Virus record (IMG/VR): IMGVR_UViG_3300032288_004306
Location: 1 to 61,050 of that record
Source: a virus
Length of the DNA: 61,050 nucleotides
Direction: 5' to 3' (one strand)
Numbering within the stretch: position 1 is the first letter of the stretch; every line of letters starts with the position of its first letter. A program made the position numbers and the translations under genes. Positions 37,974 through 57,713 of this stretch are shown piece after piece. The notes under the pieces were generated by a model. It did no database searches. It saw nothing but the letters and a program-made list of their open reading frames with translations, and was not told the origin of the DNA.

Positions 37974-38303
37974 ATGGCATTAGCAAAAATTAAAGATGTT
38001 ACATTGTATGTTGGTCTTACAGAAAATGGTGCAGCATGTTTTCAAGTAAAGAAACTTCTTGCTGATAATAACATTCCACACAAACTTCTTGCATACAATG
38101 ATACAGCACAACACCCATCAGTGTTTGGTGCATTAAACACATGGCGTTGGGGTGAAAATTTAGAAACAAGAACATTTACTGATTTTCCAATTGTTCACTG
38201 GAAAGAAGTTGACACCAATGCTGATATAGTTTTAAAATGCGTTACATCAGTCGCAGAACTAAACAACTCTTCATTATTGTTAAATAAAGAACTCGTAGAA
38301 TAA
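37974..38303 (+). CDS. Glutaredoxin-like small protein
   Basis: A 109-residue protein with a glutaredoxin-like secondary-structure order: strand VTLYVGL, then a loop with a single cysteine (ENGAACFQV), then helix KKLLADNNI, strand PHKLLAYND, and FPIVHWKE where Pro sits as a cis-proline would. A second active-site cysteine is absent. Monothiol redox or a non-catalytic thioredoxin-fold role are both possible. AGGAGG precedes the ATG. It sits between two fibre gene groups. The fold call is tentative. Confidence 0.45.
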   Translation: MALAKIKDVTLYVGLTENGAACFQVKKLLADNNIPHKLLAYNDTAQHPSVFGALNTWRWGENLETRTFTDFPIVHWKEVDTNADIVLKCVTSVAELNNSSLLLNKELVE

Positions 38304-38322: not shown

Positions 38323-41300
38323 ATGCCTCTAGCGCGAAATACTCTTAAAATTACTCGTGCTGAGCCAGGAAGCGTCACGTTCAATTCTTCTGGCACATGG
38401 ACAATTCCATTCAAAGTCCGCAAATTTACAGTTACAGGTGTCGGTGGCGTAGGTAATCCTGGTAATCCAGGAAACGCTGGCATTGCTGGTACTGGTGGTC
38501 CAGGTGGTACTGCTGGTGTTGCTGGTAATGCAGGTAATCCTGGAGCAAAAGGTGCGACTGGCAATCCTGGTAATCCTGGCAATGCTGGCAAAGGCGGCGA
38601 AGGCGGGGCTGGTGGCACCGCAGGTTCAGCTGGTAACAAAGGTGCTACAGGTGCTTCTGGTAATCCTGGTAATCCTGGTAACAATGGCGTAGGTGGTGAA
38701 GGTGGTGCTGGTGGTAATGCAGGTTCTGCAGGTAATAAAGGTGCCACTGGCAATCCAGGAAATCCTGGCAATCCAGGAACAAACGGAAATGGTGGTGCAG
38801 GTGGTTTAGCAGGTAATGCAGGAGCTGCTGGTAATCCTGGAAATAGCGGCAATGCAGGCAATCCTGGCAATCCTGGAACTAATGGCACAGGTGGTAGTGG
38901 TGGAGCAGGTGGCGCTGCTGGAGGCGCAGGTAATAAAGGTGCCACTGGCAACCCAGGAAATCCAGGAAACCCAGGAACTAACGGTGTAGGTGGTCCTGGT
39001 GGTAATGCAGGCACTGGTGGCGCAGCAGGAAATAAAGGCGCAACAGGAAATCCTGGCAATCCTGGTAACTCAGGAAATTCTGGCAAAGGCGGTGCTGGTG
39101 GCAAAGGCGGTGCTGGTGGAGGCGCAGGTAATGCAGGAAATCCTGGAGACCCAGGAGGTCCAGGAAACTCTGGTAAGGGTGGTGCAGGCGGCAATGCTGG
39201 CGGAAATGGTGGTTCTGGTGGAAATGGTGGCACTTCTGATGGAAGCCAAAGTGATGGTGGTTTTGGTGGTCCAGGCGGCAATGGCGGTAATCCAGGTTCA
39301 GTTGGTGGTGGAAATATTGGTCCATTAGGCGGTGATGGTGGTCCTGGAGGAAATCCAAGTGGTGGTGCTGGTGGTCCAGGTGCTACTGCTGCGCAGCCAT
39401 TTGAAAACGGCGGTGGCGGTGGTGGCGGTGGCGGCGGAGCTGGTAGCGGTGGAGCTGGATCACCAGGAAATCCTGGTGATGGTGGATTGTTAGGAGCTAA
39501 TGGCGATGATGGTAATCCAGGAAATCCTGCAGGAAACGGTAATGTTGGCGCTGCAGGTAATTCTGGTGCTGATGGTGTTCCAGGAACAGATGGCAATACA
39601 GGTGCTGATGGTACTGGTGCTGGTGGTGGGAATCCAGGAAATGCAGGTGTAGCAGGAAATTTAGGTACGAACGGTAATCCTGGAAACAATGGCAATCCAG
39701 GTGCAAATGGCACAGGAGCCACATCAGGTGGTGCAGGTGCTGGTGGAAATCCTGGAAACGCTGGTGCAGCAGGAAATCCAGGAAATATTGGTAGTCCTGG
39801 TAATGCAGGTTTTGGTGCAACATCTGGCGGCAGTGGTGGTGAAGGTCAGCCTGGAAATGCTGGTACTGCGGGAAATGCTGGAAGCAATGGGAATCCTGGC
39901 GCTAATGGCACAGGAGCCACATCAGGTAATCCTGGATCAGCAGGTTCAGCTGGCACAGATGGTGTAGCAGGGAATGCTGGCAACAAAGGTGCCACTGGCG
40001 CCAATGGTACTGGCGCAACATCAGGTAATGCTGGATCTCCAGGTGTAGCAGGAAATCTTGGCGCTGCAGGTAATGCTGGCAACAAAGGTGCTACTGGTGC
40101 TGATGGTACTGGTGCAAATCCTGGTACTTCTGGTAATCCTGGAACTGCAGGAAATCCTGGTGTAGCAGGTAATTTTGGAAGTGCTGGTACAACTGGCAAC
40201 CCTTCTTCAATTGCGCAATCAACATTCTCAAGTTTCACTACATCCAATTTTGCAGGTGGTGCTGCTGGTCCTGCGGGAACTGGCGGTAATGCTGGCAATA
40301 AAGGCGCAACAGGTAATGCTGGTAACCCAGGAAATCCTGGCAATTCAGGCAAAGGTGGCGAGGGCGGCGCAGCAGGCACTGGCGGAAATGCTGGCAACAA
40401 GGGTGCAACTGGTGCAACAGGAAATTCAGGAAATCCAGGAAATAATGGAGTTGGTGGTGAAGGTGGTGCAGCTGGAACTGCTGGATTAGCAGGTAATAAA
40501 GGTGCAACTGGCGGCAGTGGTAATCCTGGCAACCCTGGCAATAATGGAGTTGGTGGTGCTGGAGGTAACGCAGGTACTGGTGGTGCTGCTGGTAATCCTG
40601 GCAATAAAGGTGGCACTGGCAACCCTGGCAATCCTGGATTCAATGGTAACGGTGGTGCAGCAGGTGCTGCGGGTAATGGTGGCAACGCAGGTAATCCTGG
40701 CAATAAAGGTGGCACAGGCAATTCAGGTAATCCAGGAAACAATGGTGCTGGTGGTCCAGGTGGTAATGCTGGCGGTGCTGGTCTAGCAGGAAACAAAGGT
40801 GCCACTGGTAATCCTGGAAATCCTGGTAATGCAGGAAATTCTGGCAAAGGTGGTCCTGGCGGTAAAGGTGGATCTAAAGGATTTGCAGGAAATGCAGGTG
40901 CCACTGGAAATTCAGGCGCTCCAGGTAATGCTGGTAATGCTGGTAAAGGTGGCACACGCGGAAATGCTGGAACTGCAGGAAATCCTGGAAGCCCAGGAAA
41001 TGCTGGCGTCCCAGGTGGCGGCGGTGGCGGCGGTGGTGGAGGTGGTGCATTTACCATGGAAACTGCTGCAGGAGCCTCTGCAGGATCTCCAGGTAATGCT
41101 GGAGGCGGTGCAACCAACGGTAATGGTGGTGGCGCAGGATCTCCTTTTGCCTTTGGTGGTGATGGTAATGCTGGCTCACCAGGATCTGCAGGTAATCCAG
41201 GAGCAGATGGAACTGGCGCCAATTCAGGAAATCCAGGAAATCCAGGAAATGTTGGTGCCGCAGGTAATCCTGGTGCTGATGGCAATCCTGGTGCTGATGG

Positions 41301-42060
41301 TACAGGTGCAACTTCTGGTGGTGCTGGTGGTTCAGGTGAACCAGGAAATTTTGGTGCTGCTGGTAATCCAGGCACTAACGGCAATCCTGGTCCTGATGGT
41401 ATTGGCGCAACAAACGGTAATGCAGGAAACGCAGGTGGTGAAGGTGGGCTTGGTTTAGGTGGCGATGTTGGCAATCCAGGACCAAATGGCAATGATGGCT
41501 TTGGTGCTGGAAATGGAAATGCTGGCGGAAATGGTGGAGCTGGAAATGCAGGTGGCGGTGGCGATGTAGGTGTTGCTGGTCCTGCAGGTAATGGTGGTTC
41601 TGGTGCAACATCAGGCAATCCTGGAAATGGTGGTGCTGCTGGAAATGATGGTGCAAATGGCACTGCTGGTAATAAAGGCGCAACTGGTGCAAATGGTACT
41701 GGCGCAACATCAGGCAATTCAGGTAGTGCAGGTTCTGCTGGAACAGATGGCGCGAATGGAACCAATGGTAATAAGGGTGCTACAGGTGCAGACGGAACAG
41801 GTGCTGGTTCTGGCAATGCTGGCTCAGAAGGCACACCAGGAAATGCTGGTGCTGCAGGAAATAATGGTACAGCAGGAACAACAGGTGCTAACGGAAATCC
41901 TGGCAACCCAGGAAATCCAGGTGGATCTGGATCATCAGGAACACCAAGCGTTTCAAACATCACTGCACTTAAAACAAGATCAGTGGGTGCACTATCAGCC
42001 ATCACCGTTGGTGGTGGATCTGGATCAGGTCAGATCGTCATATCGTGGTCAGGACAGTAA
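38323..42060 (+). CDS. Collagen-like Gly-Asn-Pro fibre
   Basis: A 1245-residue protein. Residues 1-43 form a small beta entry domain (PGSVTFNSSGTWTIPFKVRK, then FTVTGVGG). Residues 44 to about 1205 are almost unbroken Gly-x-y triplets, dominated by G-N-P, G-N-A, G-N-K, G-A-T and G-G-x. One clear break near nt 40196-40255 (SSIAQSTFSSFTTSNFAGG) divides two half-shafts of similar pattern. Residues about 1206-1245 form a short C-terminal domain. Pro lies chiefly in the Y position, just before Gly. Collagen triplets make trimeric rods, so this is likely a long adhesion fibre. Two prolyl-hydroxylase-like genes follow. The two long minus-strand ORFs across it are codon-pattern shadows. Confidence 0.85.
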   Translation: MPLARNTLKITRAEPGSVTFNSSGTWTIPFKVRKFTVTGVGGVGNPGNPGNAGIAGTGGPGGTAGVAGNAGNPGAKGATGNPGNPGNAGKGGEGGAGGTAGSAGNKGATGASGNPGNPGNNGVGGEGGAGGNAGSAGNKGATGNPGNPGNPGTNGNGGAGGLAGNAGAAGNPGNSGNAGNPGNPGTNGTGGSGGAGGAAGGAGNKGATGNPGNPGNPGTNGVGGPGGNAGTGGAAGNKGATGNPGNPGNSGNSGKGGAGGKGGAGGGAGNAGNPGDPGGPGNSGKGGAGGNAGGNGGSGGNGGTSDGSQSDGGFGGPGGNGGNPGSVGGGNIGPLGGDGGPGGNPSGGAGGPGATAAQPFENGGGGGGGGGGAGSGGAGSPGNPGDGGLLGANGDDGNPGNPAGNGNVGAAGNSGADGVPGTDGNTGADGTGAGGGNPGNAGVAGNLGTNGNPGNNGNPGANGTGATSGGAGAGGNPGNAGAAGNPGNIGSPGNAGFGATSGGSGGEGQPGNAGTAGNAGSNGNPGANGTGATSGNPGSAGSAGTDGVAGNAGNKGATGANGTGATSGNAGSPGVAGNLGAAGNAGNKGATGADGTGANPGTSGNPGTAGNPGVAGNFGSAGTTGNPSSIAQSTFSSFTTSNFAGGAAGPAGTGGNAGNKGATGNAGNPGNPGNSGKGGEGGAAGTGGNAGNKGATGATGNSGNPGNNGVGGEGGAAGTAGLAGNKGATGGSGNPGNPGNNGVGGAGGNAGTGGAAGNPGNKGGTGNPGNPGFNGNGGAAGAAGNGGNAGNPGNKGGTGNSGNPGNNGAGGPGGNAGGAGLAGNKGATGNPGNPGNAGNSGKGGPGGKGGSKGFAGNAGATGNSGAPGNAGNAGKGGTRGNAGTAGNPGSPGNAGVPGGGGGGGGGGGAFTMETAAGASAGSPGNAGGGATNGNGGGAGSPFAFGGDGNAGSPGSAGNPGADGTGANSGNPGNPGNVGAAGNPGADGNPGADGTGATSGGAGGSGEPGNFGAAGNPGTNGNPGPDGIGATNGNAGNAGGEGGLGLGGDVGNPGPNGNDGFGAGNGNAGGNGGAGNAGGGGDVGVAGPAGNGGSGATSGNPGNGGAAGNDGANGTAGNKGATGANGTGATSGNSGSAGSAGTDGANGTNGNKGATGADGTGAGSGNAGSEGTPGNAGAAGNNGTAGTTGANGNPGNPGNPGGSGSSGTPSVSNITALKTRSVGALSAITVGGGSGSGQIVISWSGQ
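38449..41940 (+). repeat. Collagen-triplet DNA repeat (Gly-x-y)
   Basis: About 1,160 codons with a strict 9-base periodicity (GGN at every third codon), built from GGTAATCCT-like units. Codons for the same triplet vary (GGT/GGC/GGA/GGG, CCT/CCA), so there is no exact long tandem repeat. Confidence 0.9.
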
Positions 42061-42062
42061 CA

Positions 42063-42075
42063 TATATAACTGATA
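42063..42075 (+). promoter_or_regulatory. Possible degenerate late promoter before 42099
   Basis: TATATAACTGATAC (about 42063-42076) lies in the 38-base gap after the collagen gene. Allowing one base of gap it resembles TATAAATACTGATAC at 43419, sharing ACTGATAC. The box itself does not match TATAAATA, so this is weak. Confidence 0.28.
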
Positions 42076-42098
42076 CAATATGATTTTTTGGAGTCATC

Positions 42099-42827
42099 AT
42101 GTTTTTTGATAAGTTAAAGTCTGTCATCAAAACACCAACAATTGAATTTTTATGTTACAAAGAAGATTATGGTGTTCTTCCTGAACCATATCCTGCGCGC
42201 AAATTAATGCCAGATTGGTTCAAGGCACTTCCGCCAAAGATCAATAAAGAAAACAAATTTAAAAATAGCACAATCAAACGTTGTGCACCGTTTCTAGATG
42301 CCATGAATGTGGGTTGGATTCTTCCACTTGCAGCTGACGTTGAGTTTACAACAAATGGTGATGTGAGTGGTGTAAATTACAAGTGGCAGTTTTATCGCAC
42401 CATGATTGAGAATCATGGCAGATCGCAAATTTCTACCGAAGAAGTTCCAAATCCTAATGATCCAAAACCACCAATGAAGTTTTTGAATTATTGGGCAATT
42501 AAAGTTCCAAAAGGTTACTCAGTTCTATTTGTTCCACCATTGAATCGCCCAGACCCAAGGTTCACTTGTATCTCTGGTCTTGTGGATTGTGATGGTTACT
42601 TTGAGTTTATTAATTTCCCATTCTTCTTTCATGAGCCAAATTTTGTCGGAATTATTCCTGCAGGAACACCTCTCGTTCAAGTGATTCCGTTTAAGCGCGA
42701 TGCATTGTTCCGAGACTTCGAAGCAAGAGCAATGACAGAAGAAGAACATAATGAGTTAGAGTTCACTCGTCGTCAAAGAAGCATTCATGAAAGTCATTAT
42801 CGAGATTATGTATGGAGTAGAAAATAA
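42099..42827 (+). CDS. DUF6065-like phage protein, copy 1
   Basis: A 242-residue protein. Motifs in order: EFLCYKEDYGVLPEPYPA, MPDWFKALPP, RCAPFLDAMNVGWILPLAADV, FLNYWAIKVPKGYSVLFVPPLN, FTCISGLVDCDGYFEFINFPFF, and AGTPLVQVIPFKRD. It resembles, from memory, phage proteins catalogued as DUF6065; this was not checked. Two more members of the family lie at 44941 and 45678. The beta-rich layout with closing GTPLVQVIP recalls cupin or 2OG folds but no His-x-Asp metal pair is evident. It overlaps the ATG of a prolyl-hydroxylase-like gene by 1 base. Joint work with the hydroxylase on the fibre is inference. Confidence 0.65.
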   Translation: MFFDKLKSVIKTPTIEFLCYKEDYGVLPEPYPARKLMPDWFKALPPKINKENKFKNSTIKRCAPFLDAMNVGWILPLAADVEFTTNGDVSGVNYKWQFYRTMIENHGRSQISTEEVPNPNDPKPPMKFLNYWAIKVPKGYSVLFVPPLNRPDPRFTCISGLVDCDGYFEFINFPFFFHEPNFVGIIPAGTPLVQVIPFKRDALFRDFEARAMTEEEHNELEFTRRQRSIHESHYRDYVWSRK

Positions 42828-43417
42828 TGTCAGTATATCAATTTGCGCCAAGTCCAGATAAATCCACAAATGAATCATTACATGCATGGTGGAACGATGG
42901 CTTTACTTCTCGTGAAATAAAGGATATAATCAATGTTGGTGATGATTATGTACAAAGTGATGGAACAATTGGTTCAGGTGAAACTAACGAAGATATTCGC
43001 AAATCTAAAGTTGCTTGGATCAATAACAACACAAGAACAAATTGGTTGTATGATCGTATGGCGTTTATTACAAGAAATCTAAACGGACAATTTTTCGATT
43101 TCGATTTGTATGGGTTTGTTGAAGATTTCCAATACACAGTTTATGGTGAGGGAAATGATCATTATACTTGGCATATGGATAAGGGAAGAAACTCAACCTC
43201 GCCAAGAAAACTGTCATTAGTTTTGCAATTATCCGACCCTTCTGAGTATGATGGTGGCGATCTAGAAATATTCACTGGAGCAACGCCCACAGTCTTGGAA
43301 AAGAAAAAGGGAATTATTCATGCCTTTCCAAGTTTTGTGATGCATCGCGTAACTCCAGTGACTCGTGGCGTGAGAAAGACTTTAGTTGTTTGGGTTTCTG
43401 GACCGAAGTTTAGATAA
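42827..43417 (+). CDS. Prolyl 4-hydroxylase-like 2OG-Fe(II) enzyme 1
   Basis: A 196-residue enzyme of the P4H/PKHD type. Metal ligands are visible: HYTWHMDKG gives His116 and Asp118, and PSFVMHRVTPVTRG gives His173. Arg183 in GVRKTLVVW fits 2-oxoglutarate binding. DPSEYDGGDLEI is the typical family strand. P4H domains hydroxylate proline using O2, Fe(II) and 2-oxoglutarate. The N-terminal 70 residues are specific. The ATG overlaps the preceding stop (TAATG). The upstream collagen-like fibre offers hundreds of X-Pro-Gly sites, the canonical substrate. That this fibre is the target is inference. Confidence 0.85.
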   Translation: MSVYQFAPSPDKSTNESLHAWWNDGFTSREIKDIINVGDDYVQSDGTIGSGETNEDIRKSKVAWINNNTRTNWLYDRMAFITRNLNGQFFDFDLYGFVEDFQYTVYGEGNDHYTWHMDKGRNSTSPRKLSLVLQLSDPSEYDGGDLEIFTGATPTVLEKKKGIIHAFPSFVMHRVTPVTRGVRKTLVVWVSGPKFR

Positions 43418-43418
43418 A

Positions 43419-43426
43419 TATAAATA
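43419..43426 (+). promoter_or_regulatory. T4-type late promoter
   Basis: A perfect TATAAATA box in the 35-base gap after the hydroxylase gene, 26 bases before the ATG at 43453. Transcription would begin about 6 bases past the box, leaving a short leader. gp33, the late coactivator, is encoded in this window. Confidence 0.6.
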
Positions 43427-43452
43427 CTGATACGCCCAATTAAGAGATTGCC

Positions 43453-44292
43453 ATGTCAACAACTAGAGATTATACAAAAACCTGGATTCCTGGACCATCT
43501 CGCGTCAATCAAACGTTTAATGCTCCAGGAAGTATCACGATTCCATATGGAAGATATCAGGCAACTGTAACAGGTAAGGGTGCTCCTGGAAACTCCCCAC
43601 AAGCAACTGCATGGGCAACAAACTACAACGTAGTGTATCCAGTTGGTAATCGCCCGATTGCAAATCAACCTGCAACTGGGTGGACAACAAACTATAACGT
43701 TGCATACCCAGTCAACTATCCATTCGCGGCAAGTCACGAAGCATATCAACCTCCAAATTATTGGGCTGTCGGATATCATAAAGGATACACTTATTGGTCT
43801 AGACCTGCATATGGTCAAACTGAGAATTTCAATCCGCAAGGTCCAAGTATATTCGGTTCCAGTCAATGTGGATTTTCTCCGCAACATCAAAGTGGACCAT
43901 CGCATCTTTCAAGCCACACTGTTCAACATCGAGAATACACTATCAATCAGTGCCAAACGTATCCTGGATACCCATACACAGTTATCAACTACAACGTTGC
44001 ATATAACACTGTATACCCAATCGCAACTCAGCCCGCAACTGCTTGGGTGACAAATTATAATACAAATTATAATGTTGTATATCCAATTGCAAATCAACCT
44101 GTGACTGCATATGTTTTAGGTAATGTTGGTGCTGCAGCAAGTGCATTGGGTGTTACTGCTCCTGGTGGTCCTGTATCTCAAGCAGCAAGTCCAATATCCC
44201 CTACTGCAGTCTCTTATTATTCATATCCAGATAACGCAACATATCCTGTTACTGTCCCATCAGGTGGTCAAATCAATATTACTATAACATAA
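43453..44292 (+). CDS. Tyr/Asn/Pro-rich fibre protein
   Basis: A 279-residue protein. Residues 10-47 (SRVNQTFNAPGSITIPYGRY, then QATVTGKGAPG) match the entry domain of the collagen-like fibre. The body carries repeats of the form TNYNVVYPIANQPxTAW (about residues 55-95 and 180-220), giving unusually high Tyr, Asn and Pro. A middle part is rich in His and Gln (SPQHQSGPSHLSSHTVQHRE). The C-terminus ends in YPVTVPSGGQINITIT, beta-like. Probably a short fibre or adhesin attached by the same entry domain as the collagen fibre. It has its own late-promoter box. No catalytic motif. Confidence 0.65.
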   Translation: MSTTRDYTKTWIPGPSRVNQTFNAPGSITIPYGRYQATVTGKGAPGNSPQATAWATNYNVVYPVGNRPIANQPATGWTTNYNVAYPVNYPFAASHEAYQPPNYWAVGYHKGYTYWSRPAYGQTENFNPQGPSIFGSSQCGFSPQHQSGPSHLSSHTVQHREYTINQCQTYPGYPYTVINYNVAYNTVYPIATQPATAWVTNYNTNYNVVYPIANQPVTAYVLGNVGAAASALGVTAPGGPVSQAASPISPTAVSYYSYPDNATYPVTVPSGGQINITIT

Positions 44293-44335
44293 TTATTGCT
44301 TTTTTATTATTTTATAATTTACATGTAAGGTGAGA

Positions 44336-44941
44336 ATGATGTATCCTATACCAAAATTTAGTAAACAATTAAACCATTTTTGTCATGTTACAGATGTCTT
44401 CTCAAAAGAAGAAGTGAAGAAAATACTAGATCTAGAAGATTTAACTAAATTCTTAAAAGGTAACGTTGGAGATGGTGATCGTGGCCAGTTAAATATTACG
44501 GCTAGAGACAGTGATATCATGTGGCTGCAGCCAACTGATGGTCAAAACGGTGAAGCGTTGTGGCTTTTTGACAAATTTGCGCATCTAACTGGGCAAGTAA
44601 ACCAAGATCATTTTCTTTTTGACATCGATCATCTCCAAGCATTTCAATACACCGTCTATAGAGAAAGTCAACATTATACATGGCATGTTGACATTTCAAA
44701 CATATGGATGAAATACGAAAGAAAAATTAGCGCATCTATTATTCTCACAGACCCTGATGAATATGAGGGTGGAGAATTTGAAGCAATTGTTGGCGGTAAT
44801 GTTGAAAATCCAACAGTCATAAAACCAAATAAAGGGGATGTTATCTTTTTTGCCTCTTGGATTCCTCACAGAGTAAGACCTGTCACGAGTGGCGTAAGAA
44901 AATCATTAGTTGCTTGGGTTATGGGTAAGAGGACTTGGTGA
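44336..44941 (+). CDS. Prolyl 4-hydroxylase-like 2OG-Fe(II) enzyme 2
   Basis: A paralogue of 42827-43417. Start at 44336 is chosen because AAGG ends 5 bases before it; GTG 44330 and ATG 44339 are alternatives. With this start, ligands are His117 and Asp119 (HYTWHVDIS) and His178 (ASWIPHRVRPVTSG), with Arg188 (GVRKSLVAW) for 2-oxoglutarate. DPDEYEGGEFEAIVGG is longer than in copy 1. Both keep every expected residue, so both should be active. The stop overlaps the next ATG (TGATG). Two hydroxylases may differ in site choice or act on the two fibres here. Confidence 0.83.
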   Translation: MMYPIPKFSKQLNHFCHVTDVFSKEEVKKILDLEDLTKFLKGNVGDGDRGQLNITARDSDIMWLQPTDGQNGEALWLFDKFAHLTGQVNQDHFLFDIDHLQAFQYTVYRESQHYTWHVDISNIWMKYERKISASIILTDPDEYEGGEFEAIVGGNVENPTVIKPNKGDVIFFASWIPHRVRPVTSGVRKSLVAWVMGKRTW

Positions 44942-45681
44942 TGTTTGAACTATTTACATCATGGAAACAAAAAAAGGAAATCATGACCTTTTATTGTCAC
45001 CCAGAATTAGAAGATGTCATCCCAAAACCAGAACCAGCATTATCTAATCTTCCAAAGTGGTTTAAAGATCTAGATCCTTCATTTGAGGGTTTTGATAAAT
45101 TTGGTCATGAAAATATGACCGCTAAAAAATGTCTACCACTTATTGACGGTATGTCGTTAGGCTACGTCATCAAATTAGCAGGAGATGTTCGAATTCGAAG
45201 CAATAAAGATTGCACTCAAATTGATCATCTAGAACAACCACAACTTAAACTAATTGAATACCACACTGAAAAGCAAGTTGGTGGTAATCATGCATTAAGA
45301 AAAAAACAAGGACCAATCATTAAGTTTGTGAATCATTGGATAATTAAAACTGCGCCAGGATGGTCAACTTTATTTGAACCATTACCAAACGTGTTTGATA
45401 GTCCATTTACTTGTTTTTCTGGTTTAGTTGACACTGATCAATATCCAAAACTTGTAAATTTTCCAGCAGTTTGGAATTTACCAGATGCAAATTTTTTATT
45501 AAAAGCAGGAACTCCATTAGTTAGAGTAATCCCGATTGAAAGAAGTTCAATTACAAAAATGAAGAAAAACACAGTTATTCGTAAAATGAGTGAAAAAGAA
45601 TTTTTGACAATTTCTAAAATAGAAAAGATTCAACAGTTAAGAAATAATTATTATACTCATGATTTGAGGGTGAAAAAATGA
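44941..45681 (+). CDS. DUF6065-like phage protein, copy 2
   Basis: A 246-residue paralogue of 42099-42827, with FYCHPELEDVIPKPEPA, LPKWFKDLDPS, KKCLPLIDGMSLGYVIKLAGDV, FVNHWIIKTAPGWSTLFEPLPN, FTCFSGLVDTDQYPKLVNFPAV and AGTPLVRVIPIERS. AGAGGA lies 8 bases before ATG 44941; the frame is open a little further upstream (TTG, GTG) but these would overlap the previous gene more. No signal peptide. It is coupled to the second hydroxylase as copy 1 is coupled to the first, a repeated pairing. Confidence 0.65.
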   Translation: MFELFTSWKQKKEIMTFYCHPELEDVIPKPEPALSNLPKWFKDLDPSFEGFDKFGHENMTAKKCLPLIDGMSLGYVIKLAGDVRIRSNKDCTQIDHLEQPQLKLIEYHTEKQVGGNHALRKKQGPIIKFVNHWIIKTAPGWSTLFEPLPNVFDSPFTCFSGLVDTDQYPKLVNFPAVWNLPDANFLLKAGTPLVRVIPIERSSITKMKKNTVIRKMSEKEFLTISKIEKIQQLRNNYYTHDLRVKK

Positions 45682-46454
45682 TTTTTGATTTTATGAAAAA
45701 AAGTGATATTGATTTTATCGATGCAGATAATAGTACTGCACATATTCCAGAACTTGCAATAAAGCGTGCAAGAGATGTTGAACCATTTTTTAAACAATCG
45801 CAAAAAGATAAATTTGGGGAGTATAAATTTGCTGCTTGTCCAGGTATGTTAGATTTTGCTAGAATTGGTTATATAATTCCAGCATGGGGTCCTTTAAAGA
45901 TAAAGGGAAATTCTGCAGGCACAGTAACTTTAAATACTCCACCTCTAGAGATTAGACAAAACAATCCAAATATATCGTTTATGCCTGCGTTGAGGTTTGA
46001 TGAGGACGTCATCGATGGATTATTCACAACACAAGATAATGTTAAATTATCTGTTTACAATTTTCCATCTCCATGGAGAATTCGGTGTAGAAAGGGTTTA
46101 TCAGTAATTGTAATGCCCGCATTTTACCATTTCAAACATGTAAACTCTATACAACTTATTCCAGGCATTGTTGATTATTCTGCTGGATTTCAAACAGTTA
46201 ATTTTATTGCTGCAGTAACTAAAGAAACAGAGATTCATATTGAACCTGGTGAACCATTAATTCACATAATTCCAATTCCAACTGATGCAATTATTGCTAC
46301 TTATGGTAAAGAACACGATTATAAAACCAAAAGTATCGATAACACAACTAATCCATTTAAGAGTTATAAACAATGGTATTCAAAGTATGTCAAATTAAAT
46401 AAAAAATTTAAACTTGTTAATAGAAATAAAGAAAAGTATGAGACCTTCAATTGA
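45678..46454 (+). CDS. DUF6065-like phage protein, copy 3 (divergent)
   Basis: A 258-residue, more distant relative of the two previous copies. It keeps CPGMLDFARIGYIIPAWGPL, SPWRIRCRKGLSVIVMPAFY, IQLIPGIVDYSAGFQTVNFIA and PGEPLIHIIPIPTDA, in the same order. The N-terminal P-x-P-x-W-F-K part is missing. GAGGGTG precedes the ATG, which overlaps the preceding stop. The next gene begins inside its stop codon (TGATG). The common closing strand G-(T/E)-P-L-(V/I)-x-(V/I)-I-P suggests a shared fold. Function unknown. Confidence 0.58.
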   Translation: MIFDFMKKSDIDFIDADNSTAHIPELAIKRARDVEPFFKQSQKDKFGEYKFAACPGMLDFARIGYIIPAWGPLKIKGNSAGTVTLNTPPLEIRQNNPNISFMPALRFDEDVIDGLFTTQDNVKLSVYNFPSPWRIRCRKGLSVIVMPAFYHFKHVNSIQLIPGIVDYSAGFQTVNFIAAVTKETEIHIEPGEPLIHIIPIPTDAIIATYGKEHDYKTKSIDNTTNPFKSYKQWYSKYVKLNKKFKLVNRNKEKYETFN

Positions 46455-47413
46455 TGAGAAAAATATTCGTTAATATTGCATCTTATAGAGATTGTTATCT
46501 TCCAGCAACGATTAAAAGTTTAATCAATAATGAATCTGGTAGAAATCAAATTACATATGGAATATTCGATCAATCACATTTAGAAAGTAGTTTATTTGCA
46601 ACAGCAAAAGATCTAATAAATTTACCAAATGTTAGATATAAAAGAATAGATCCAGAATATTCTGACGGAGTCGTTTGGGCTCGAGCCATTAATGCAATGC
46701 AAATTAATGAAGAAGAATTCATGTATCAAGTGGATTCGCATATGCTTTTCGATAAAGATTGGGACAATTATTTAATTTGGGATTATGAGCAAGCAAAGAA
46801 AATTGCAAACACAGAAAAAATAATATTATCGACTGGAACAAAAAATTTTGAAGCAGTTGATAATAAAATAACAAAGCATACATTGTCTGATGACATAACT
46901 GTTAAATTTGGATACTTTCAATTTAGAAAAAATCTTCAACTTAGAGTGCATGGTCCATGGATCCCTGCCACCTCTGTGGTGCAACCTTCAATCCATGCAA
47001 TTGCTGGAAATTTTTTCACCACTTCAAAATGGGTAAAAGATGTCGGATATAACACAAATATGTACTTCGACGCTGAAGAGCAAGTGCTTGCACTTTCCTC
47101 TATTATTGCTGGGTACAAGATATATGCTCAGAGAAAGATAAAGTGTTACCATTTGATTGGTTCTAATAAACACATCAGTCGGCAAGAAGTTGAACCAGTC
47201 ATCCATCCAAGCATAATTCAGAGAAATAAAAATCGAGAAGAGAGAGAACTAATCGACTACATCTACTCTTTACCAGAAGAAAAACTAGAAGAATATAGAA
47301 AACTCACTGGAGTTGATTATATAAATAGAAAATTAGAGGATAGAGCTATCTCGCGATCAATACCGCACGATTCAGATTTAGTCAACGATTGGGAAATTCC
47401 AAATAGAGAGTAA
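46454..47413 (+). CDS. GT60-type GlcNAc transferase
   Basis: A 319-residue glycosyltransferase with the hallmarks of the polypeptide GlcNAc-transferase family (CAZy GT60, Pfam GlcNAc): IFVNIASYRDCYLPATIKSL at the N-terminus, ITYGIFDQSH, the GP..AR-like block DGVVWARAINAM, FMYQVDSHMLFDKDWD (the DxD-like nucleotide-sugar site), AGNFFTTSKWVKDVGY, FDAEEQVLALSSIIAGYKIY and CYHLIGSNKHISR. The best known members, Gnt1 of Dictyostelium and Toxoplasma, attach GlcNAc to hydroxyproline of Skp1. Here it lies downstream of two prolyl-hydroxylase-like genes and a collagen-like fibre. ATG 46454 is chosen; a TTG lies one codon earlier. Substrate is inferred. Confidence 0.83.
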   Translation: MRKIFVNIASYRDCYLPATIKSLINNESGRNQITYGIFDQSHLESSLFATAKDLINLPNVRYKRIDPEYSDGVVWARAINAMQINEEEFMYQVDSHMLFDKDWDNYLIWDYEQAKKIANTEKIILSTGTKNFEAVDNKITKHTLSDDITVKFGYFQFRKNLQLRVHGPWIPATSVVQPSIHAIAGNFFTTSKWVKDVGYNTNMYFDAEEQVLALSSIIAGYKIYAQRKIKCYHLIGSNKHISRQEVEPVIHPSIIQRNKNREERELIDYIYSLPEEKLEEYRKLTGVDYINRKLEDRAISRSIPHDSDLVNDWEIPNRE

Positions 47414-47414
47414 A

Positions 47415-48143
47415 ATGACGCTTCAAAAGTCTAACGTAGTCACAAACATAGAACTGGTGGTAAGAGATTCTTCTCAGATCGAAGAAAGGCACGTTCTTGC
47501 GGCGGCAGAAGTTGGTGTGGGATCCGCAAATCAAAGTCCAGCAGAAGTTTTAAATGTTCGAGAAGTGTGTAATTTTAAAAAAACTTCTGAAGGATACACG
47601 GTAGATGGTAAAGAGTATGTTTATCTATCTCCACATGAAGGAATAGTTGAAAATTCTGATACAAATTTATTCGTATCAATAAGAAAAAATCATGAAATTA
47701 AAAATAACACTTCTCCTCAAACTCAATTAACATCAAACGCTCTATATCTACTAACTCAAGGATCAATGGAAATCTCTTATGAGAGTGGAGAAAGGGAAAC
47801 ACTCTCAGCTTTTGTCGGGGAAAATTGGAGTTCAGAGTACCCTAATTATAGATACTCAGTAAATTGTATAGTTGAGTTACATAAGAATTCTTCTTTGTTC
47901 GTAGTCGACTTATTAAACCCTGTATCGAATTATGATATTGAGCATATTCAATTTAACGGTGTGATTGAGAAATCTTTAGATTCGAATGTGATTGTTATTG
48001 CTAAATGCATTAATACGAGTCCAACTAATAATCTTGTTTATGTGAATGACGAGCTTTGCAGAAGTTACTTGATTTGCAACGGAAATATCTCGTTAAATTC
48101 ATCTGGCAATGCAATCAGCGTTCTTATAAAGAATAAACAATAA
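47415..48143 (+). CDS. Unassigned protein, possibly cupin-like
   Basis: A 242-residue protein that I do not recognise. It is beta-rich; the stretch LYLLTQGSMEISYESGERET with a following LSAFVGENW could be a cupin strand pair, but the metal-binding His pattern is absent. Composition is rich in Asn, Ser and Val. It starts 1 base after the GT60 gene and ends just before a late-promoter box, so it closes the first modification cluster. It could be a small virion protein or an accessory of the modification enzymes. Confidence 0.5.
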   Translation: MTLQKSNVVTNIELVVRDSSQIEERHVLAAAEVGVGSANQSPAEVLNVREVCNFKKTSEGYTVDGKEYVYLSPHEGIVENSDTNLFVSIRKNHEIKNNTSPQTQLTSNALYLLTQGSMEISYESGERETLSAFVGENWSSEYPNYRYSVNCIVELHKNSSLFVVDLLNPVSNYDIEHIQFNGVIEKSLDSNVIVIAKCINTSPTNNLVYVNDELCRSYLICNGNISLNSSGNAISVLIKNKQ

Positions 48144-48179: not shown

Positions 48180-48515
48180 ATGGCTCAGTTTATAGAATTA
48201 GAACTCGATCAAGGATCGGATTTTAACTACGATCTAGATCTTTCCGATGATGATGGAGTTGCCATTAACGTCACTAATTTTACATTCACATCTTCTATTC
48301 GAAAGTCTTATTATTCTACTAATCCAGTAGCCAATTTAACCGTTACCGTTCTAAATGCTGCGAACGGTAATGTATTTTTTACTTTAAATGCAGCGACGAC
48401 GGCTAATATTAAAGCTGGTCGCTATCTTTTTGACGTGAAGCAAGTTGATAATGTGAACACTACTACTCGCCTTATTGAAGGCATTATCACAGTTAATCCG
48501 CAGGTTACGAAATGA
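48180..48515 (+). CDS. Small beta-sandwich structural protein
   Basis: A 111-residue, beta-rich protein: [52 protein letters not shown] and [12 protein letters not shown], with alternating strands that fit an Ig-like or BppU-type N-terminal domain. Such small proteins often precede fibre genes in aquatic tailed phages. It overlaps the giant fibre by 4 bases. It is probably an attachment domain that docks the fibre to the baseplate; this is inferred from position only. Confidence 0.62.
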
Positions 48516-51500
48516 CTATACTTCGCGTCTCCACAGGTCGTGGTTCTCAAGGTTTAACGGGTCCACAAGGTCCATCTGGTCCTGCTGGCATTAATGGTCC
48601 ACAGGGTCCACAGGGTCCATCTGGTCCTGCTGGTGGTCCACAAGGACCAACTGGTGCTACTGGTCCACAAGGTCCGCAAGGCGTAATAGGTAACACTGGT
48701 CCACAAGGTCCGCAAGGCGTAACAGGTAACACTGGTCCACAAGGTCCACAAGGTCCATCTGGTCCAGCTGGTGGTCCTCAAGGTCCACAAGGTGTAACTG
48801 GTCCTCAAGGTCCACAAGGCGTAACTGGTCCACAAGGTCCACAAGGTCCGCAAGGTCCACAGGGTTCTACTGGACCTCAAGGTCCGCAAGGTCCTCAAGG
48901 TCCACAAGGCGTAACTGGTCCGCAAGGTCCACAGGGTTCTACTGGTCCTCAAGGTCCGCAAGGTCCATCTGGAACTGCTGGTGACAGATACGCCACAACC
49001 AGCTCAACAGCTGCAACAATATCTCATCCAGCAACATTTACATTCACAATTGCTCCATCATTAGCATATAGTATATCTCAAACCGTTAGAGTGGCACATA
49101 ATGCCAACAATTACATAGAGGGTATTGTTGTCTCATATGCATCTGGTAATGGTCAATTAATTGTAGATTCAACATCAGCAACTGGCAGCGGCACATACGG
49201 TACATGGGCTGTAAACCTTGCTGGTGCTACTGGATCCCCTGGTCCACAAGGTCCACAGGGATCACAAGGTTCAACTGGTCCACAAGGTCCACAAGGTCCA
49301 CAAGGTCCATCTGGTGCTCAGGGTGATACTGGTGCAACGGGTGCAGCTGGTCCACAAGGTCCACAAGGTGTTGTTGGTAATGCTGGTCCACAAGGTCCAC
49401 AAGGTCCACAAGGTCCACAGGGTCCACAAGGTGGTATTGGTTCAACTGGTGAAGTTGGTCCACAAGGTCCACAAGGTCCACAGGGTCCGCAGGGTTCTAC
49501 TGGTCCACAAGGTCCACAAGGTGTTCTTGGTCCACAAGGTCCACAAGGTCCAGGCGCAAGTGATGCATATGCTCAAGCCAATGCTGCATATGCACGCGCA
49601 AATTCGCTCACGATTCAAGAAGTTTATGCAAGTAATGGTAACGTTGTAAATTCATATTCAAACGTTAACACTATTCAATTTGATAACGATGCTGGATTCA
49701 ATGTAATTGACGAAGCAAATGGTATCGTTTCCATTCAAATGAACAGTACGTTCAAGACATGGAATATTAATGGTGCTCCTGGTCTTGTTGCTTCTGGTCT
49801 TGATACAGTAAACTTTATCGGTCAGGGAATTACTATTGAAGCCAATAATAATTCTTCTCCAAAATCAATCACGTTTACTTCTGCAGCACTTGATGCATAC
49901 ACCACTGGCAATAATTCATATGCTCAAGCCAATGCTGCTCGTAATCAAGCAAACACTGCTCGTGATACTGCGAATGGTGCATATTCTCAAGCCAATGGTG
50001 CATATGCACAGGCTAATGGTGCATATGCTCAAGCAAATACTGGAATTGAATCTGCAAACGGCGCATACGCTCAAGCGAACGGTGCCTATGCTCAAGCAAA
50101 TATTGCTTATGGTCAAGCCAATGACGCATATAGCCAAGCAAATACGGCTCGTGGACAGGCTAACACTGCACGCGATCAGGCTAACACTGCTTATGCTCAA
50201 GCAAATGCTGCTTACGCCGATGCAAATACTCGCGTCTTGAAGGCTGGTGATACAATGACTGGCAACTTAAATGTTGCTGCTACATTGATCACACAAAATG
50301 TCATTCCAAATCTAAACGTCACATATGATCTTGGTACACCAACTCAGCGTTTCAAAGATATCTGGTTATCAAATTCAACCATTTATCTTGGTAATGCTCA
50401 AATCACAACGTTGGAAGATGGACAAACAATTCAAATTCAAACATTGAATGTAAGCACTCTTGAAACTGCAAGTGGCATTAACATTGCTTCTCAGGCAGCT
50501 GATGCTTACACTCAAGCCAACAATGCACGTGAACAGGCTAACTCTGCTCGTGGTCAAGCCAATGCAGCATATGCAGAAGCCAATCTGAAGTTTAATTCAG
50601 CTGGTGGCACAGTAACTGGCAACGTTGCAATCACCCAAAACTTATCATCAAATGGTACAGTTGTCGTTCTTAACGATCCAGTTGTAACTATCGGTATTGC
50701 AAATCTTGCATCAAATGATAACAGAGATCGCGGCTTCGACTTCAAGTATTGGGATACTGAAGAAAGAAGAGGCTTCATTGGTTGGGATAACAGTCTAAAT
50801 GCTCTCACTGGTTACGTTCATGCAACGGAAAACAATGAAGCATTTGGTGGTAATCGTATCAATGCACGATTCCTCAATGTTACGACTGATGATAGACTCA
50901 CAGCTGCAAATGCTAACATAACAACAGCAAATATCACAACTCTTGTTACAAATGGAGCAACAGCGCAGTCAATCACTCTTGGTTCACTTAATGTTGAAAC
51001 ATGGGTTGGTGACTCATACGCTCAAGCCAATGCGGCTCGTGGTCAAGCAAATACAGCACGTGACCAAGCGAATGCTGCTTATGCTGACTCAAATACGAGA
51101 GTATTGAAGGCTGGCGATACTATGACAGGAAACCTTGTCATGAGTGGTGCAACGCTCAATGCTAACATTGCTCATATTTCTACAATTAGAACAGCAAATG
51201 CTCTTTCACTTGAAACGACGGCTGCTCAAAATGTTCTTGTTAAGACAAACGGCAATGAAGTTGTTCGTGTAACGACTGCTAACCAAGTGTTTGTTGGTAC
51301 AAATGCTGCAGCAGTAATTGCTCAACTTGGACTCACTGCTGCAAATGGATATAATGTTCCACTCGCTGCTGTTGATTCTGCAAATAATGGCGTTGAAGTT
51401 ACTGTAATTAATAAGAACACTGGAACTCTTGCATATGCTGAGTTCAATGCGAAAAACGACGAAACACCAAACGGTGAATCTGGATGGATTTCTGTTGGTA

Positions 51501-54500
51501 TTAATAGTGCCAACTACGATGATCCTGACTACACTGTAACTGGTCCAGACGATGGTTACATTCTATATGAAGCCGCCACTGGTTCTGGTGCAAATGGCGA
51601 CTTGATTGTTGGTACTGGCACAAACGGTACAAATAATAAGATCACTTTTGTTGCTGGTGGATTCGGTCGCGAAGATGCTCAATTGATCATCAGCCCACAA
51701 GCACTTAAGAGAGCAGACATTCAAGGTCGTTCGTTGACGTCAAATGTCGCAACGATTCATACTGTTGGTGCTCATACGTTTATTGCAAATGATCAAGTAA
51801 CAATCAGTGGCGTAAGTGCTCCATTCAATGGAACGTTTACAGTAACTGGTGCTCCAACATCGAATACGTTTACATATAACCTTACAAGCACGAATGCATC
51901 ATTTGCTTCAGTTGATCCTGTTGGTAAGGCAGTGCAGTTTGTTGTGTTTAACAGAGGCACTGTTGAGATTCCATCTCAATTGCTTGCTGGTGAAAATGCA
52001 CTCTCAACGCTAATTGATGCAGGTATTGACCTTGCAAATAACTTTGCTGTTGCTGCAGCAGCAGTGGTGGACTATAATGGTCCTGGCGAAACTGTCATGT
52101 TCAACAAGAGCAATGGCTCTCTTGCATACTCTGAGTTCAATGCTCGAAACTCTGAAGCCAACTCTGAACATGGTTGGATTTCTCTTGGTATTAACTCACC
52201 AACCTATAATGATCCATCATTCCCAATCACGAAAGGTGATGATGGTTATCTTCTATACGAAGCACCATTTGGAACAAATAATAGTGGTGACTTGATTATC
52301 GGCACTGGTGTACACGGTCAAAATAATCGTATCATCTTTGCTGCTCAAGGTTTCGACGAAGCCAATGCTCAGATGTCTATCACACCAGACTCGTCAGTGC
52401 GAATTAGAATTAACACTGATTCGACAAGTGCAAACACTGGCGCTCTTACAGTTGATGGTGGTATCGGTATCCTTGGTTCAATGTATATCCAAGGTAATCA
52501 AACAATTCAAGGTGACTTGATTGTTAACGGTACGCAGATCATTCAATCTGTACAAAGCCTCGTTGCTGAAGGTCCAATTTCTCTCGTTGGTAATGATACA
52601 GTTGGAGATACATGGGACTCTGGCGTTGTTGCAGCATATGCTCTATCCAAGACACCAGAAACAGCAAGTATCAATAATAAAGCACTTACAAATAACATTG
52701 TAACACTCACAACAACGTTGAATCATACCTTCGAAGTTGAAGATCTTGTTACAGTTGCAAACGTTGATGCAACATTCGACGGAACATATCGAATCACCAA
52801 CGTAACTGCAAATACGTTCTCATACTACAAACTTGCATCAAACGTTGCATCACAAGCTGATACTGGTGATGCAACAGTCAATAAGAGAATGTACTATGAA
52901 GGTGTTGTCAAGAATGTCAATACCAACTACTGGAACTTCTTCTCAGGTCTACAAACTCGCCCAGAGTTCAATGTTGACTGGAACGATGCAAATCTAGCAT
53001 TCGACGGTATCGTTGCTGGTGCTGCTGACTTCAAGGGTTCATTGAAGTTTGGTACAACAACAAATCAAGTGACATTGAACTATACTGATACAAACAATCG
53101 TACATTGACTGTTCCAGCATTGGGTGGCAATAGAACGTTCGCGTTTATCAATGAAGTTCAAACATTCACTGGTAATCAAACGTTCAGCGATAACGTAACT
53201 GCTCGCAAGATTATTGTCACTGGCGATAATGTTGATGGCACTGGTATGTTCTTACCAACTGCTGCAACTCTCGGCTTCTCAGTCGATGGTGTTGAGCGTG
53301 TAAGATTTGCCACTGGTGAAGCAGTAATCAACGAGAACTCGCAAGATTATAACTTCCGCGTCGAAACAAATAATGATGCTCATGCATTGTTTGTTGATGG
53401 TGGTACTGACAACGTTGGTGTTGGTTTAGACGGACCAACTTCGAAGTTCCACGTTGTTGGTAATGCAAACATTACTCTTGGTATCGTAACTGGTGCTGGT
53501 GTAAATGCTGCAACTGTCAACGCAACAACGTTGAACGCCGCAACACTTATCACGAATGCTGGTATCAACGTAACGGCTCAAGCTGCTGATGCTTATGGTC
53601 AAGCAAACTCTGCTCGCGATCAAGCCAATACAGCATACGGTCAAGCCAACGACGCATATAGTCAAGCAAACACGGCTCGTAACCAAGCCAACAGTGCTTA
53701 CGGTGCAGCAAATAATCGTGTGTTGAAGGCTGGCGATGTTATGACTGGCACTCTCAACGTCAACTTTGCTGGCGTTGGATTGAATGTTAACACTGATGCA
53801 GTATTCGGAAACACGATTGCAGTTGGCTCTGGTGCGCAAATTAGCCTACCAAATCTAGTTGCTCAGTTTACGTCAAATCAAAATGGCTATAGCCAAATTA
53901 ACTTTACAAATCAAAATGCTGGAACAAATGCTTCTGGTGATGTGGTTGTAACTGCTGATGATGGTAGTGATACCGCATACTACATTGATATGGGTCTCAA
54001 CAGCAGCGGATTTAACGATCCAACATATGCGATTATGAAGGCTCACGATGGTTATGTGTATATCAACGGCGGCAACCTCGTCATGGGTACTTCTACCTCT
54101 GGCGATGACGTGGTTCTCTTTGCTGGTGGCACTGGTGCAGCCAACGAAGGATTGCGTGTATTCTCTAACGGTGATATAAATGTAAGCAAGACATTGTGGG
54201 TTGGTGGAAATAATATTTCTGCTAAACTCAATGCTGCATACGGTCAAGCCAATAGTGCTTATGATGCTGCAAATAATGCCAAGGTTACAGTTTATGCCAA
54301 TAGCGATTCAGGCGTAACAACTCAAGCAATCAACTTTGTAAATACATCTTCAGTTCTTGTGGCTGTTGCAAACAGTGGCGGTAATTCTAATGTCACTCTA
54401 ACGCTTGCTGGAACACCATACGATCAAGCCAATGCTGCTAGATTGCAAGCGAATACTGCTCGTGGAACTGCTAATGATGCATATGGTCAAGCAAATGCTG

Positions 54501-55930
54501 CTTATGGTCAATCAAACACGGCACGTGATACCGCAAATGCTGCTTACGCTCAAGCCAATTCAGACTATCAACCAGCAGTAACTGAACTTGCTGTTACGAA
54601 CAATGGCACAACAGCATATCGATTTGATCAATACGGTGCTACAACAGACGATCCAACGATCTATGTTCGTGCTGGCGAAACAATTGCATTTAATCTAAAC
54701 AATGCTGGTCACCCATTTGCAATTCGTGTTTCGAATGGCGGTTCAAACTATGATACAGGGTTGACGCACGTTGCAACAGATGGCACAGTAAGCACTGGCT
54801 CGAGTGCGCAAGGGAAAGTCGCTGGTAAACTTTACTGGAAGGTTCCTTTTGAACTTGGTGGAAACACTTATGTTTATCAATGCACTTCACACGCTGGAAT
54901 GGTTGGTAACATTGTCATTGAAACTGACAGTACTGTCATTTATGCCCAAGCAAATACTGCTCGCGACCAAGCCAATAGTGCTCGTGGACAGGCTAATGCT
55001 GCGTTTGCTCGCGCTAACCTTGTTTATACTCAAGCAAATAATGCATACGCCCAAGCAAACTTGGTTTATGGTGTTGCTAACGATGCATACGGACAAGCAA
55101 ATGCAGCTTACACTGCAGCAAATAATGCCAAGGTGACTGTATTTGCGAATAGCGGCGCAGCAAATGCAACAACACAAACAATCAATTTTGTGAACACATC
55201 GTCAATCCTTGTGACTGTTGCAAATACTGCAGGCAATGCTAATATTACATTGTCAATCATTGGTACTCCATATGATCAGGCAAATGCTGCTCGTGGTCAA
55301 GCAAATACAGCATATGGACAAGCCAACGACGCATATGGTCAAGCAAACACTGCCAGAACTCAAGCAAACACTGCTCGCGACCAAGCAAATACTGCTTATG
55401 ACCAAGCAAACACTGCCAGAACTCAAGCAAACACTGCTCGCGATCAAGCCAATACTGCTCGTGACACAGCCAATGCTGCATATGGTGCTGCGAACACTGC
55501 GGGTACAAATGCACTAGCTGCTTATGGTCAAGCAAACGCTGCATATGCTCGCGCTAATACTATTATCGATGGTACTGTTGCGATTAAGACGTTGTCGATG
55601 ACACAAAACCTCATCGCTGATACTGGAGCAACTGGCACAGAAATTGTCAACTTGTCTCTAGGCGACGTCTTTAGATTTGTCTTGGTTGGTGGAACGACAT
55701 TTACCTTCAATAATGCGCCAAGTTCTGGAACAGCGAAGTCTGTGTCTCTATTGGTGCAGCAGGATGCTACTGGTGGTCGCACAGTTTCTTGGGGTAATAC
55801 AATCTACTGGGCTGGTGGTTCTGCGCCTCCAGCAACGACAACAGCAAATGCTCGTGACTTGTATACCTTCATCACCTTTGATGGTGGCAGCACGTTCTGG
55901 GGCACATTGTCTATCAAGGACGCTAGATAA
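48512..55930 (+). CDS. Giant mosaic fibre, collagen-like and AQAN repeats
   Basis: A 2472-residue fibre. Order: collagen-like Gly-Pro-Gln triplets (about residues 17-155), a beta domain, a second collagen stretch (about 240-350), then shaft modules separated by seven clusters of 7-residue [14 protein letters not shown] repeats. Between clusters lie fibre domains such as [12 protein letters not shown] (three copies), three copies of a domain with (G/A)W(I)S(V/L)GINS...DDGY(I/L)LYE, and two copies of a small (T)FTV or (T)YRIT strand module. A cupredoxin-like domain occupies about 2023-2145. The last 110 residues form the knob shared with 35199-37544 ([26 protein letters not shown]). It probably trimerises and binds the host. 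An intrinsic terminator overlaps its stop. Confidence 0.82.
48560..49560 (+). repeat. Two collagen-like Gly-Pro-Gln stretches
   Basis: Gly-x-y triplets run from about 48560 to 48985 and from about 49228 to 49560, broken by a beta domain. Pro is almost always in the X position (G-P-Q), unlike the X-Pro-Gly pattern of the fibre at 38323. DNA units are near-identical GGTCCACAA copies, so this array is younger or more homogenised. Confidence 0.88.
49918..55560 (+). repeat. Dispersed 21-bp AQAN heptad clusters
   Basis: Seven clusters of a 7-residue repeat (A-Y-A-Q-A-N-x or A-R-D-Q-A-N-T) at about 49918-50240, 50500-50590, 51018-51085, 53582-53705, 54225-54560, 54945-55110 and 55270-55560. Seven-residue periodicity with Ala at core positions suggests slender coiled-coil or helical linkers. 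Confidence 0.82.
54580..54945 (+). other. Cupredoxin-like domain in the giant fibre
   Basis: Within the fibre, residues about 2023-2145 read as a plastocyanin-type fold: [28 protein letters not shown] with His2067, [10 protein letters not shown], then [17 protein letters not shown] with Cys2124, His2127 and Met2130. These are the four ligands of a type 1 copper site in the usual order and spacing (H ... C-x2-H-x2-M). Confidence 0.75.
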
Positions 55931-57707: not shown

Positions 57708-57713
57708 GAACAT

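Follow-up and report, generated by a model that had tools for sequence, protein, structure and literature searches.

The window analysed here, a 61,050-nt stretch covering the virus record IMGVR_UViG_3300032288_004306, carries at positions 38323-47413 a single co-directional run of genes on the plus strand, which encodes a collagen-like fibre (FIBRE1), two 2-oxoglutarate (2OG)-Fe(II) oxygenases, three DUF6065 proteins and a GT60 glycosyltransferase. The run consists of FIBRE1 (38323..42060, 1245 aa), DUF6065 copy A (42099..42827), the prolyl-hydroxylase-fold oxygenase P4H_1 (42827..43417, 196 aa), whose start overlaps the stop of copy A, a Pro/Asn/Tyr-rich repeat protein of the YNVVYP class (43453..44292, 279 aa), the second oxygenase P4H_2 (44330..44941, 203 aa), DUF6065 copy B (44935..45681, with ATG 44941 as the likelier start), the divergent DUF6065 copy C (45678..46454) and the GT60 gene (46451..47413, with ATG 46454 as the likelier start). 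From 42827 onward, gene starts and stops overlap or almost touch, suggesting coupled expression. A first-pass annotation of this interval placed all of its listed genes correctly but overlooked the open reading frame (ORF) of the repeat protein between the two oxygenases. Judged by gene order in related phages, the region is two putative fibre-modification cassettes that the window happens to join: cassette A with FIBRE1 as candidate substrate, and cassette B with the repeat protein as candidate substrate. The whole run is surrounded by long fibre-type genes, and the baseplate wedge gene of the window has 35-40% identity to counterparts in pelagiphage HTVC008M, Methylophilales phage Melnitz and cyanophages, which marks it as a T4-like myovirus of the type seen in aquatic bacteria. 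In pelagimyophages, a hypervariable host-recognition cluster containing fibres and glycosyltransferases is found at a comparable place (PMC7029224).

FIBRE1 is, as first described, a long Gly-x-y protein with Pro mainly before Gly. It matches the Collagen family PF01391 (E-value 2e-39, 133.6 bits) and contains 340 Gly-x-y triplets, the longest run being 88; 79 of its 92 Pro residues directly precede Gly, 57 of them as N-P-G. It may form a triple helix or, alternatively, a polyglycine-II bundle. Both oxygenases match PF13640 (E-values 1e-14 and 2e-16). The iron triad HxD...H and the basic 2OG ligand are present in P4H_1 as H116/D118/H173/R183, among which an alignment of 29 sequences shows no variation at H116, D118 and R183 and hardly any at H173; the corresponding set in P4H_2 is H119/D121/H180/R190 (alignment of 19). 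Arg at the 2OG site (R183 in P4H_1) is a feature of PHD-type enzymes. The AlphaFold2 (AF2) model of P4H_1 (pLDDT 90.3) retrieved with Foldseek a Pseudomonas prolyl-4-hydroxylase (P4H) as top hit (E-value 7e-11) and then human PHD2, with TM scores of about 0.7-0.76; Trichoplax PHD and Dictyostelium PHD were other near folds, with PKHD-type enzymes close behind. The earlier description of two intact prolyl-4-hydroxylase-like genes thus holds for the iron ligands and for the P4H-type models, which do match, but the label was too narrow, because the nearest solved sequences to both proteins are PKHD-type.

Two narrower assignments were rejected. The PKHD-type hydroxylase YbiX model (NF003972) gave only 38.5 and 37.6 bits against an equivalog cut-off of 399, and none of the PKHD-type NCBIfam cut-offs was reached by the oxygenases. 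In animals, the alpha subunit of collagen P4H has several domains, one of them for the peptide substrate, and carries Lys at the 2OG site; the window proteins are single-domain oxygenases of 196 and 203 aa with Arg, and do not belong to this type. The activity of P4H_1 is predicted to be the formation of hydroxyproline. Nearly all of the oxygenases compared keep the iron ligands and the 2OG-binding Arg, but two GT60-paired oxygenases in relatives have the distal iron His replaced by Ser or Ala (L265:5085-5660 and L267:3366-3965).

The GT60 signature reported in the first-pass annotation was borne out by profile search, in which the protein reached 84.6 bits against PF11397 (GlcNAc; cut-off 21; E-value 1.2e-23). 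D95-S96-H97 and E209-E210 are invariant in 16 homologues, and DSH is the conserved acidic motif of the GT60 family. By analogy with its family, the enzyme probably transfers N-acetylglucosamine (GlcNAc). No GT60 was found when the window protein was searched against 50,697 phage records, and the homologue from L108 yielded only three distant matches, with 22% identity. The phage records searched included no isolate with cassette B.

The unnamed family with three interleaved copies was also seen correctly from the start, and corresponds to DUF6065/phrog_7084. All three copies are strongly matched by phrog_7084 (E-value 4e-23 for copy C), whereas with Pfam PF19541 only copy B (30.4 bits) exceeds the cut-off of 26.6, copies A and C falling under it. 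The AF2 model of copy A (pLDDT 86.7) is most similar in the PDB to dUTPase and dCTP deaminase (Foldseek E-value about 1e-3, TM score on the query 0.3-0.4), indicating, at modest scores, a dUTPase-like beta-clip fold; one relative, from a cyanophage, bears the annotation triphosphate nucleotidohydrolase. It could be guessed that DUF6065 serves as a nucleotide- or nucleotide-sugar-binding partner, or as a trimer that presents the substrate. Of 80 bacterial DUF6065 loci (mostly Rhizobiales), 79 had neither GT60 nor a related oxygenase in the surrounding 8 kb, and a halogenase-like motif was sought in these loci and not found. Haloarchaeal viruses too have DUF6065 in the absence of these genes; in L001 and L002 (Haloferacalesvirus), it lies by tail genes on the opposite strand, with no oxygenase or collagen. 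The family is therefore not obligately tied to the oxygenase/GT60 system. In cyanophages, its neighbours are oxygenases and tryptophan halogenases, close to genes for tail-fibre assembly. Syn9, P-TIM40 and S-CREM1 (L410, L411 and L412) have clusters in which a DUF6065-like gene is grouped with tryptophan halogenases and multiple 2OG-Fe(II) oxygenases, adjoining tail-fibre assembly or collagen-like genes; these clusters may represent a further fibre-tailoring system.

Scanning viral contigs with DUF6065 copy A gave 80 loci, which show the order FIBRE1-DUF6065_A-P4H_1; GT60 is mostly absent from them, and a small gene with a thioredoxin look is usually present. In the window, this small gene encodes a 109-aa thioredoxin/glutaredoxin-looking protein (37974..38303, plus strand; fold judged by eye only, and no match in a Pfam search), and its homologues lie beside FIBRE1 or between FIBRE1 and DUF6065_A in many of these loci. 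A reverse scan with the N-terminus of FIBRE1 found few loci, but DUF6065_A-P4H_1 was present downstream in each distinct lineage examined, including the new L489. Linkage persists even when the cassette is rearranged, as in L339 and L341 (fibre, P4H, small gene, DUF6065). A DUF6065_A-P4H_1 pair was also observed on a contig of a Dehalococcoidia metagenome-assembled genome (L170:7965-9306), possibly a provirus or mis-binned phage.

For cassette B, a scan of viral contigs with the single GT60 protein gave no matches, unlike the later scan with a two-sequence GT60 alignment, which gave 71 loci with the order oxygenase-DUF6065-DUF6065-GT60 and mostly without FIBRE1. After dereplication, there were 31 full P4H-DUF6065-DUF6065-GT60 chains, eight chains without GT60 and four oxygenase-GT60 pairs (23, six and four, respectively, when clustered at 85% oxygenase identity). 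Directly upstream of the oxygenase lies the repeat protein, whose length varies from some hundreds of residues to almost 900 and which has an N-terminal segment (TFNxPGNxxIPYGR...SGxGG), a low-complexity middle (e.g., NYNVAYPIANQPATAY, NFNAPTNGPQ and TYNAPTPGNVAS) and a conserved C-terminal segment (LGVxFPGG...YPD...VPPGGQIVIKIE). The window ORF 43453-44292 matches its relatives in both terminal segments, and Pfam and PHROG searches returned no family for it. All 25 representatives that extend far enough to show it have the repeat protein upstream, with one extra gene in between in L319. A reverse scan used the C-terminal segment of the repeat protein alone, so that the linkage test was not biased towards the enzymes; all 42 distinct copies precede an oxygenase, 33 directly and nine via a second repeat protein. 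One cassette B-type repeat protein (L265:1111-3441) ends in a Hint-like region, with Hint matches under and AXH over the cut-off.

Both cassettes occur together in the window and in one freshwater lineage (L014), where cassette B lies on the opposite strand, several kb from cassette A. When whole records were searched with PF11397, GT60 was detected in five of the 22 records reached via cassette A and halovirus loci, or five of the 20 that carry cassette A, all five belonging to that freshwater lineage, which carries cassette B too. Conversely, in 22 cassette B records (contigs of up to 173 kb), the best DUF6065 match to copy A has 37-43% identity, as compared with 59-93% for its orthologues, implying that these records lack a recognisable cassette A; the records may be fragments, so one absence is weak evidence and it is the pattern across many that counts. 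In every examined lineage GT60 follows the repeat protein, so it tracks this protein rather than the collagen fibre. The relatives thus supported only part of the linkage that had been expected: oxygenase, DUF6065 and fibre stay together, but the linkage of GT60 to collagen is lost. It might be supposed that both oxygenases and GT60 form one pathway acting on the collagen-like fibre, as all of the genes form one run in the window and the N-terminal segments of FIBRE1 and the repeat protein are similar; this is very unlikely, however, given that cassette A lacks GT60 and cassette B lacks a collagen fibre in most relatives, and that the two are separated on opposite strands in L014-type phages. 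On this gene-order evidence, the repeat protein is a better candidate substrate for GT60 than the collagen fibre.

The slot occupied by GT60 may vary. In L297 (9338-9970) and L276 (1596-2306), a PF03567 sulfotransferase stands beside the oxygenase and DUF6065 in a chain without GT60, which fits a variable step of hydroxyl capping. A scan with the L297 sulfotransferase recovered near-identical contigs only. In a different phage context (L168:1893-10178), three DUF6065 genes, a distant GT60 and an ORF that looks by eye like a flavin halogenase were observed.

The position of Pro within the triplets also bears on the possible target. In bacterial collagens that are made without hydroxylation, Pro is preferentially placed in X, and Y tends to hold residues other than Pro (PMC8968730). 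The window contains a second collagen-like fibre of GPQ type, FIBRE2 (48512..55930, plus strand), which has no adjoining oxygenase and serves as an internal control. Pro occupies Y 72 times and X nine times in FIBRE1, as against X 56 times and Y once in FIBRE2 (Fisher p=8e-28). FIBRE1-class fibres have more Pro in Y than in X in 17 of 17 lineages (638 in Y and 82 in X when summed), which is strong evidence, although the lineages share common ancestry and are not fully independent observations. Relatives of FIBRE2 favour X, as in L108 (177 in X, none in Y), and neither FIBRE2 nor its relatives have an adjoining oxygenase from the P4H_1 and P4H_2 clades. The Y-position Pro of the FIBRE1 class matches what is expected of substrates of an X-Pro-Gly hydroxylase.

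It has also been proposed that the 2OG oxygenases of cyanophages influence 2OG levels and NtcA (PMC3037559), and that glycosyltransferases of pelagimyophages change the host O-antigen (PMC7029224), so the enzymes described here might have their targets in the host or among small molecules, such as a surface glycan, the 2OG level or a metabolite. Such a role seems highly improbable, as it would leave unexplained the adjacency to a fibre in every lineage, the possession of its own oxygenase by each fibre type, and the contrast in Pro position. The linkage rule holds for these clades and not for the whole superfamily, since P4H_1-related oxygenases of L407 (a 735-kb phage), L408 and S-PRM1 (L409) have no collagen-like or repeat fibre of these types adjoining. 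Gene content and linkage are established. That the cassettes modify their fibres at one residue or another is very probable, and that Pro is the modified residue is somewhat better than an even bet.

We propose that in cassette A, P4H_1, a PHD-type enzyme, would hydroxylate the collagen-like fibre together with its DUF6065 partner, most likely at the Y-position Pro of Asn-Pro-Gly, and thereby make the rod more stable. The substrate of P4H_2, which has two DUF6065 partners in cassette B, would be the upstream Pro/Asn/Tyr-rich repeat protein; after its hydroxylation, GT60 would cap the new hydroxyl, probably with GlcNAc, in the same order as PhyA and Gnt1 act on Skp1. Gnt1, a GT60 enzyme, modifies Skp1 only after PhyA has hydroxylated its Pro (PMC6939170). 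Tailed phages of aquatic bacteria would make a hydroxyproline-linked glycoprotein by a PhyA-Gnt1-like pathway comprising a PHD-type oxygenase, GT60 (or sulfation) and DUF6065 in an exchangeable fibre cassette, a tentative reading to which we assign a probability of roughly 0.4. In the first-pass annotation, the fibre itself was thought to be hydroxylated and then capped; its Y-position Pro does fit a prolyl hydroxylase acting on FIBRE1, but capping of the collagen by GT60 finds no support once the linkage is lost.

Besides the shared ancestry of the FIBRE1 lineages and the PKHD-type sequence neighbours of the oxygenases, several points weigh against this proposal. The chemistry of both cassettes is predicted, and the presence of FIBRE1 and the repeat protein in the virion is what we infer. 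T. cruzi GT60 GlcNAc-transferase acts on Thr of mucins, and Thr is present in the repeat proteins. Their Pro context differs among lineages, and Asn at X is as characteristic of FIBRE1 as Pro at Y. It is therefore possible that Asn or Tyr, not Pro, is hydroxylated in the repeats and that GT60 glycosylates Thr or a modified residue, in the manner of the mucin-type enzyme. Consistent with this, Tyr-Asn is the most consistently enriched dipeptide, in 30 of 36 repeat proteins, a larger number than for any Pro dipeptide; these proteins are rich in Asn, which FIBRE1 often has at X; and the GT60 family also includes the Trypanosoma cruzi polypeptide GlcNAc-transferase (PMC6939170). We nevertheless regard such a scheme as rather unlikely, since the modelled oxygenase fold is nearest to prolyl hydroxylases and the action of a prolyl hydroxylase would predict the observed difference in Y-Pro between FIBRE1 and FIBRE2.

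Several other genes of the window were noted. A 242-aa gene after GT60 (47415..48143, plus strand) had no match in Pfam and PHROG searches, and a weak homologue occupies the same place in L103; whether it is a member of cassette B is uncertain. After FIBRE2, a group-1 glycosyltransferase (PF00534) and a DUF6445 gene (55961-58271) have homologues in relatives. A tmRNA gene (1716-2069) was found by ARAGORN (flagged tmRNA*), with the tag peptide ANDDYFEMALAA.

The closest known parallel in enzyme types is the Skp1 pathway of Dictyostelium and Toxoplasma (PMC6939170), in which a PHD-fold 2OG oxygenase (PhyA) and GT60 (Gnt1) also act in sequence; in the phages, however, the gene order is fixed and takes in DUF6065 and a repetitive fibre protein, and the fibres offer many candidate sites for a predicted chemistry, whereas Skp1 has one site. 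Glycosylation of mycobacteriophage capsids and tail tubes (PMC12363180) likewise involves a phage glycosyltransferase acting on its own virion, but no oxygenase step is described, and the substrate class and glycosyltransferase context differ. The 2OG-Fe(II) oxygenases of PHROG 61 in marine phages, which resemble EGLN3, share the PHROG and the PHD-like fold with the window enzymes; the available part of that survey (PMC12774648) proposes no substrate for them, whereas each oxygenase in the window goes with one particular type of fibre. Viral hydroxylases together with viral Pro-rich or collagen proteins are also known from algal and giant viruses (chlorovirus P4H, Eriksson 1999, as cited in PMC9301287; mimivirus collagen modification, PMC8968730), but these infect eukaryotes, whereas the present systems belong to tailed phages and include GT60 and DUF6065. 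In some respects, plant and algal hydroxyproline-rich glycoproteins, in which a Pro-rich repeat protein is hydroxylated and then glycosylated, are similar; their glycosyltransferases are different, and the likeness is an analogy only.

Glycosylation of hydroxyproline has been described in eukaryotes, and that of phage virions has been described with no hydroxylation involved. If the proposal is true, the combination of both in phages would be new as far as we found in the open literature, and would provide candidate substrates for some of the "orphan" 2OG-Fe(II) oxygenases of marine phages, which have usually been explained as metabolic (PMC3037559) or left cryptic (PMC9301287). The cassettes also give DUF6065 a context, and with Y-Pro and X-Pro collagens contrasting inside single genomes, the idea can be tested directly.

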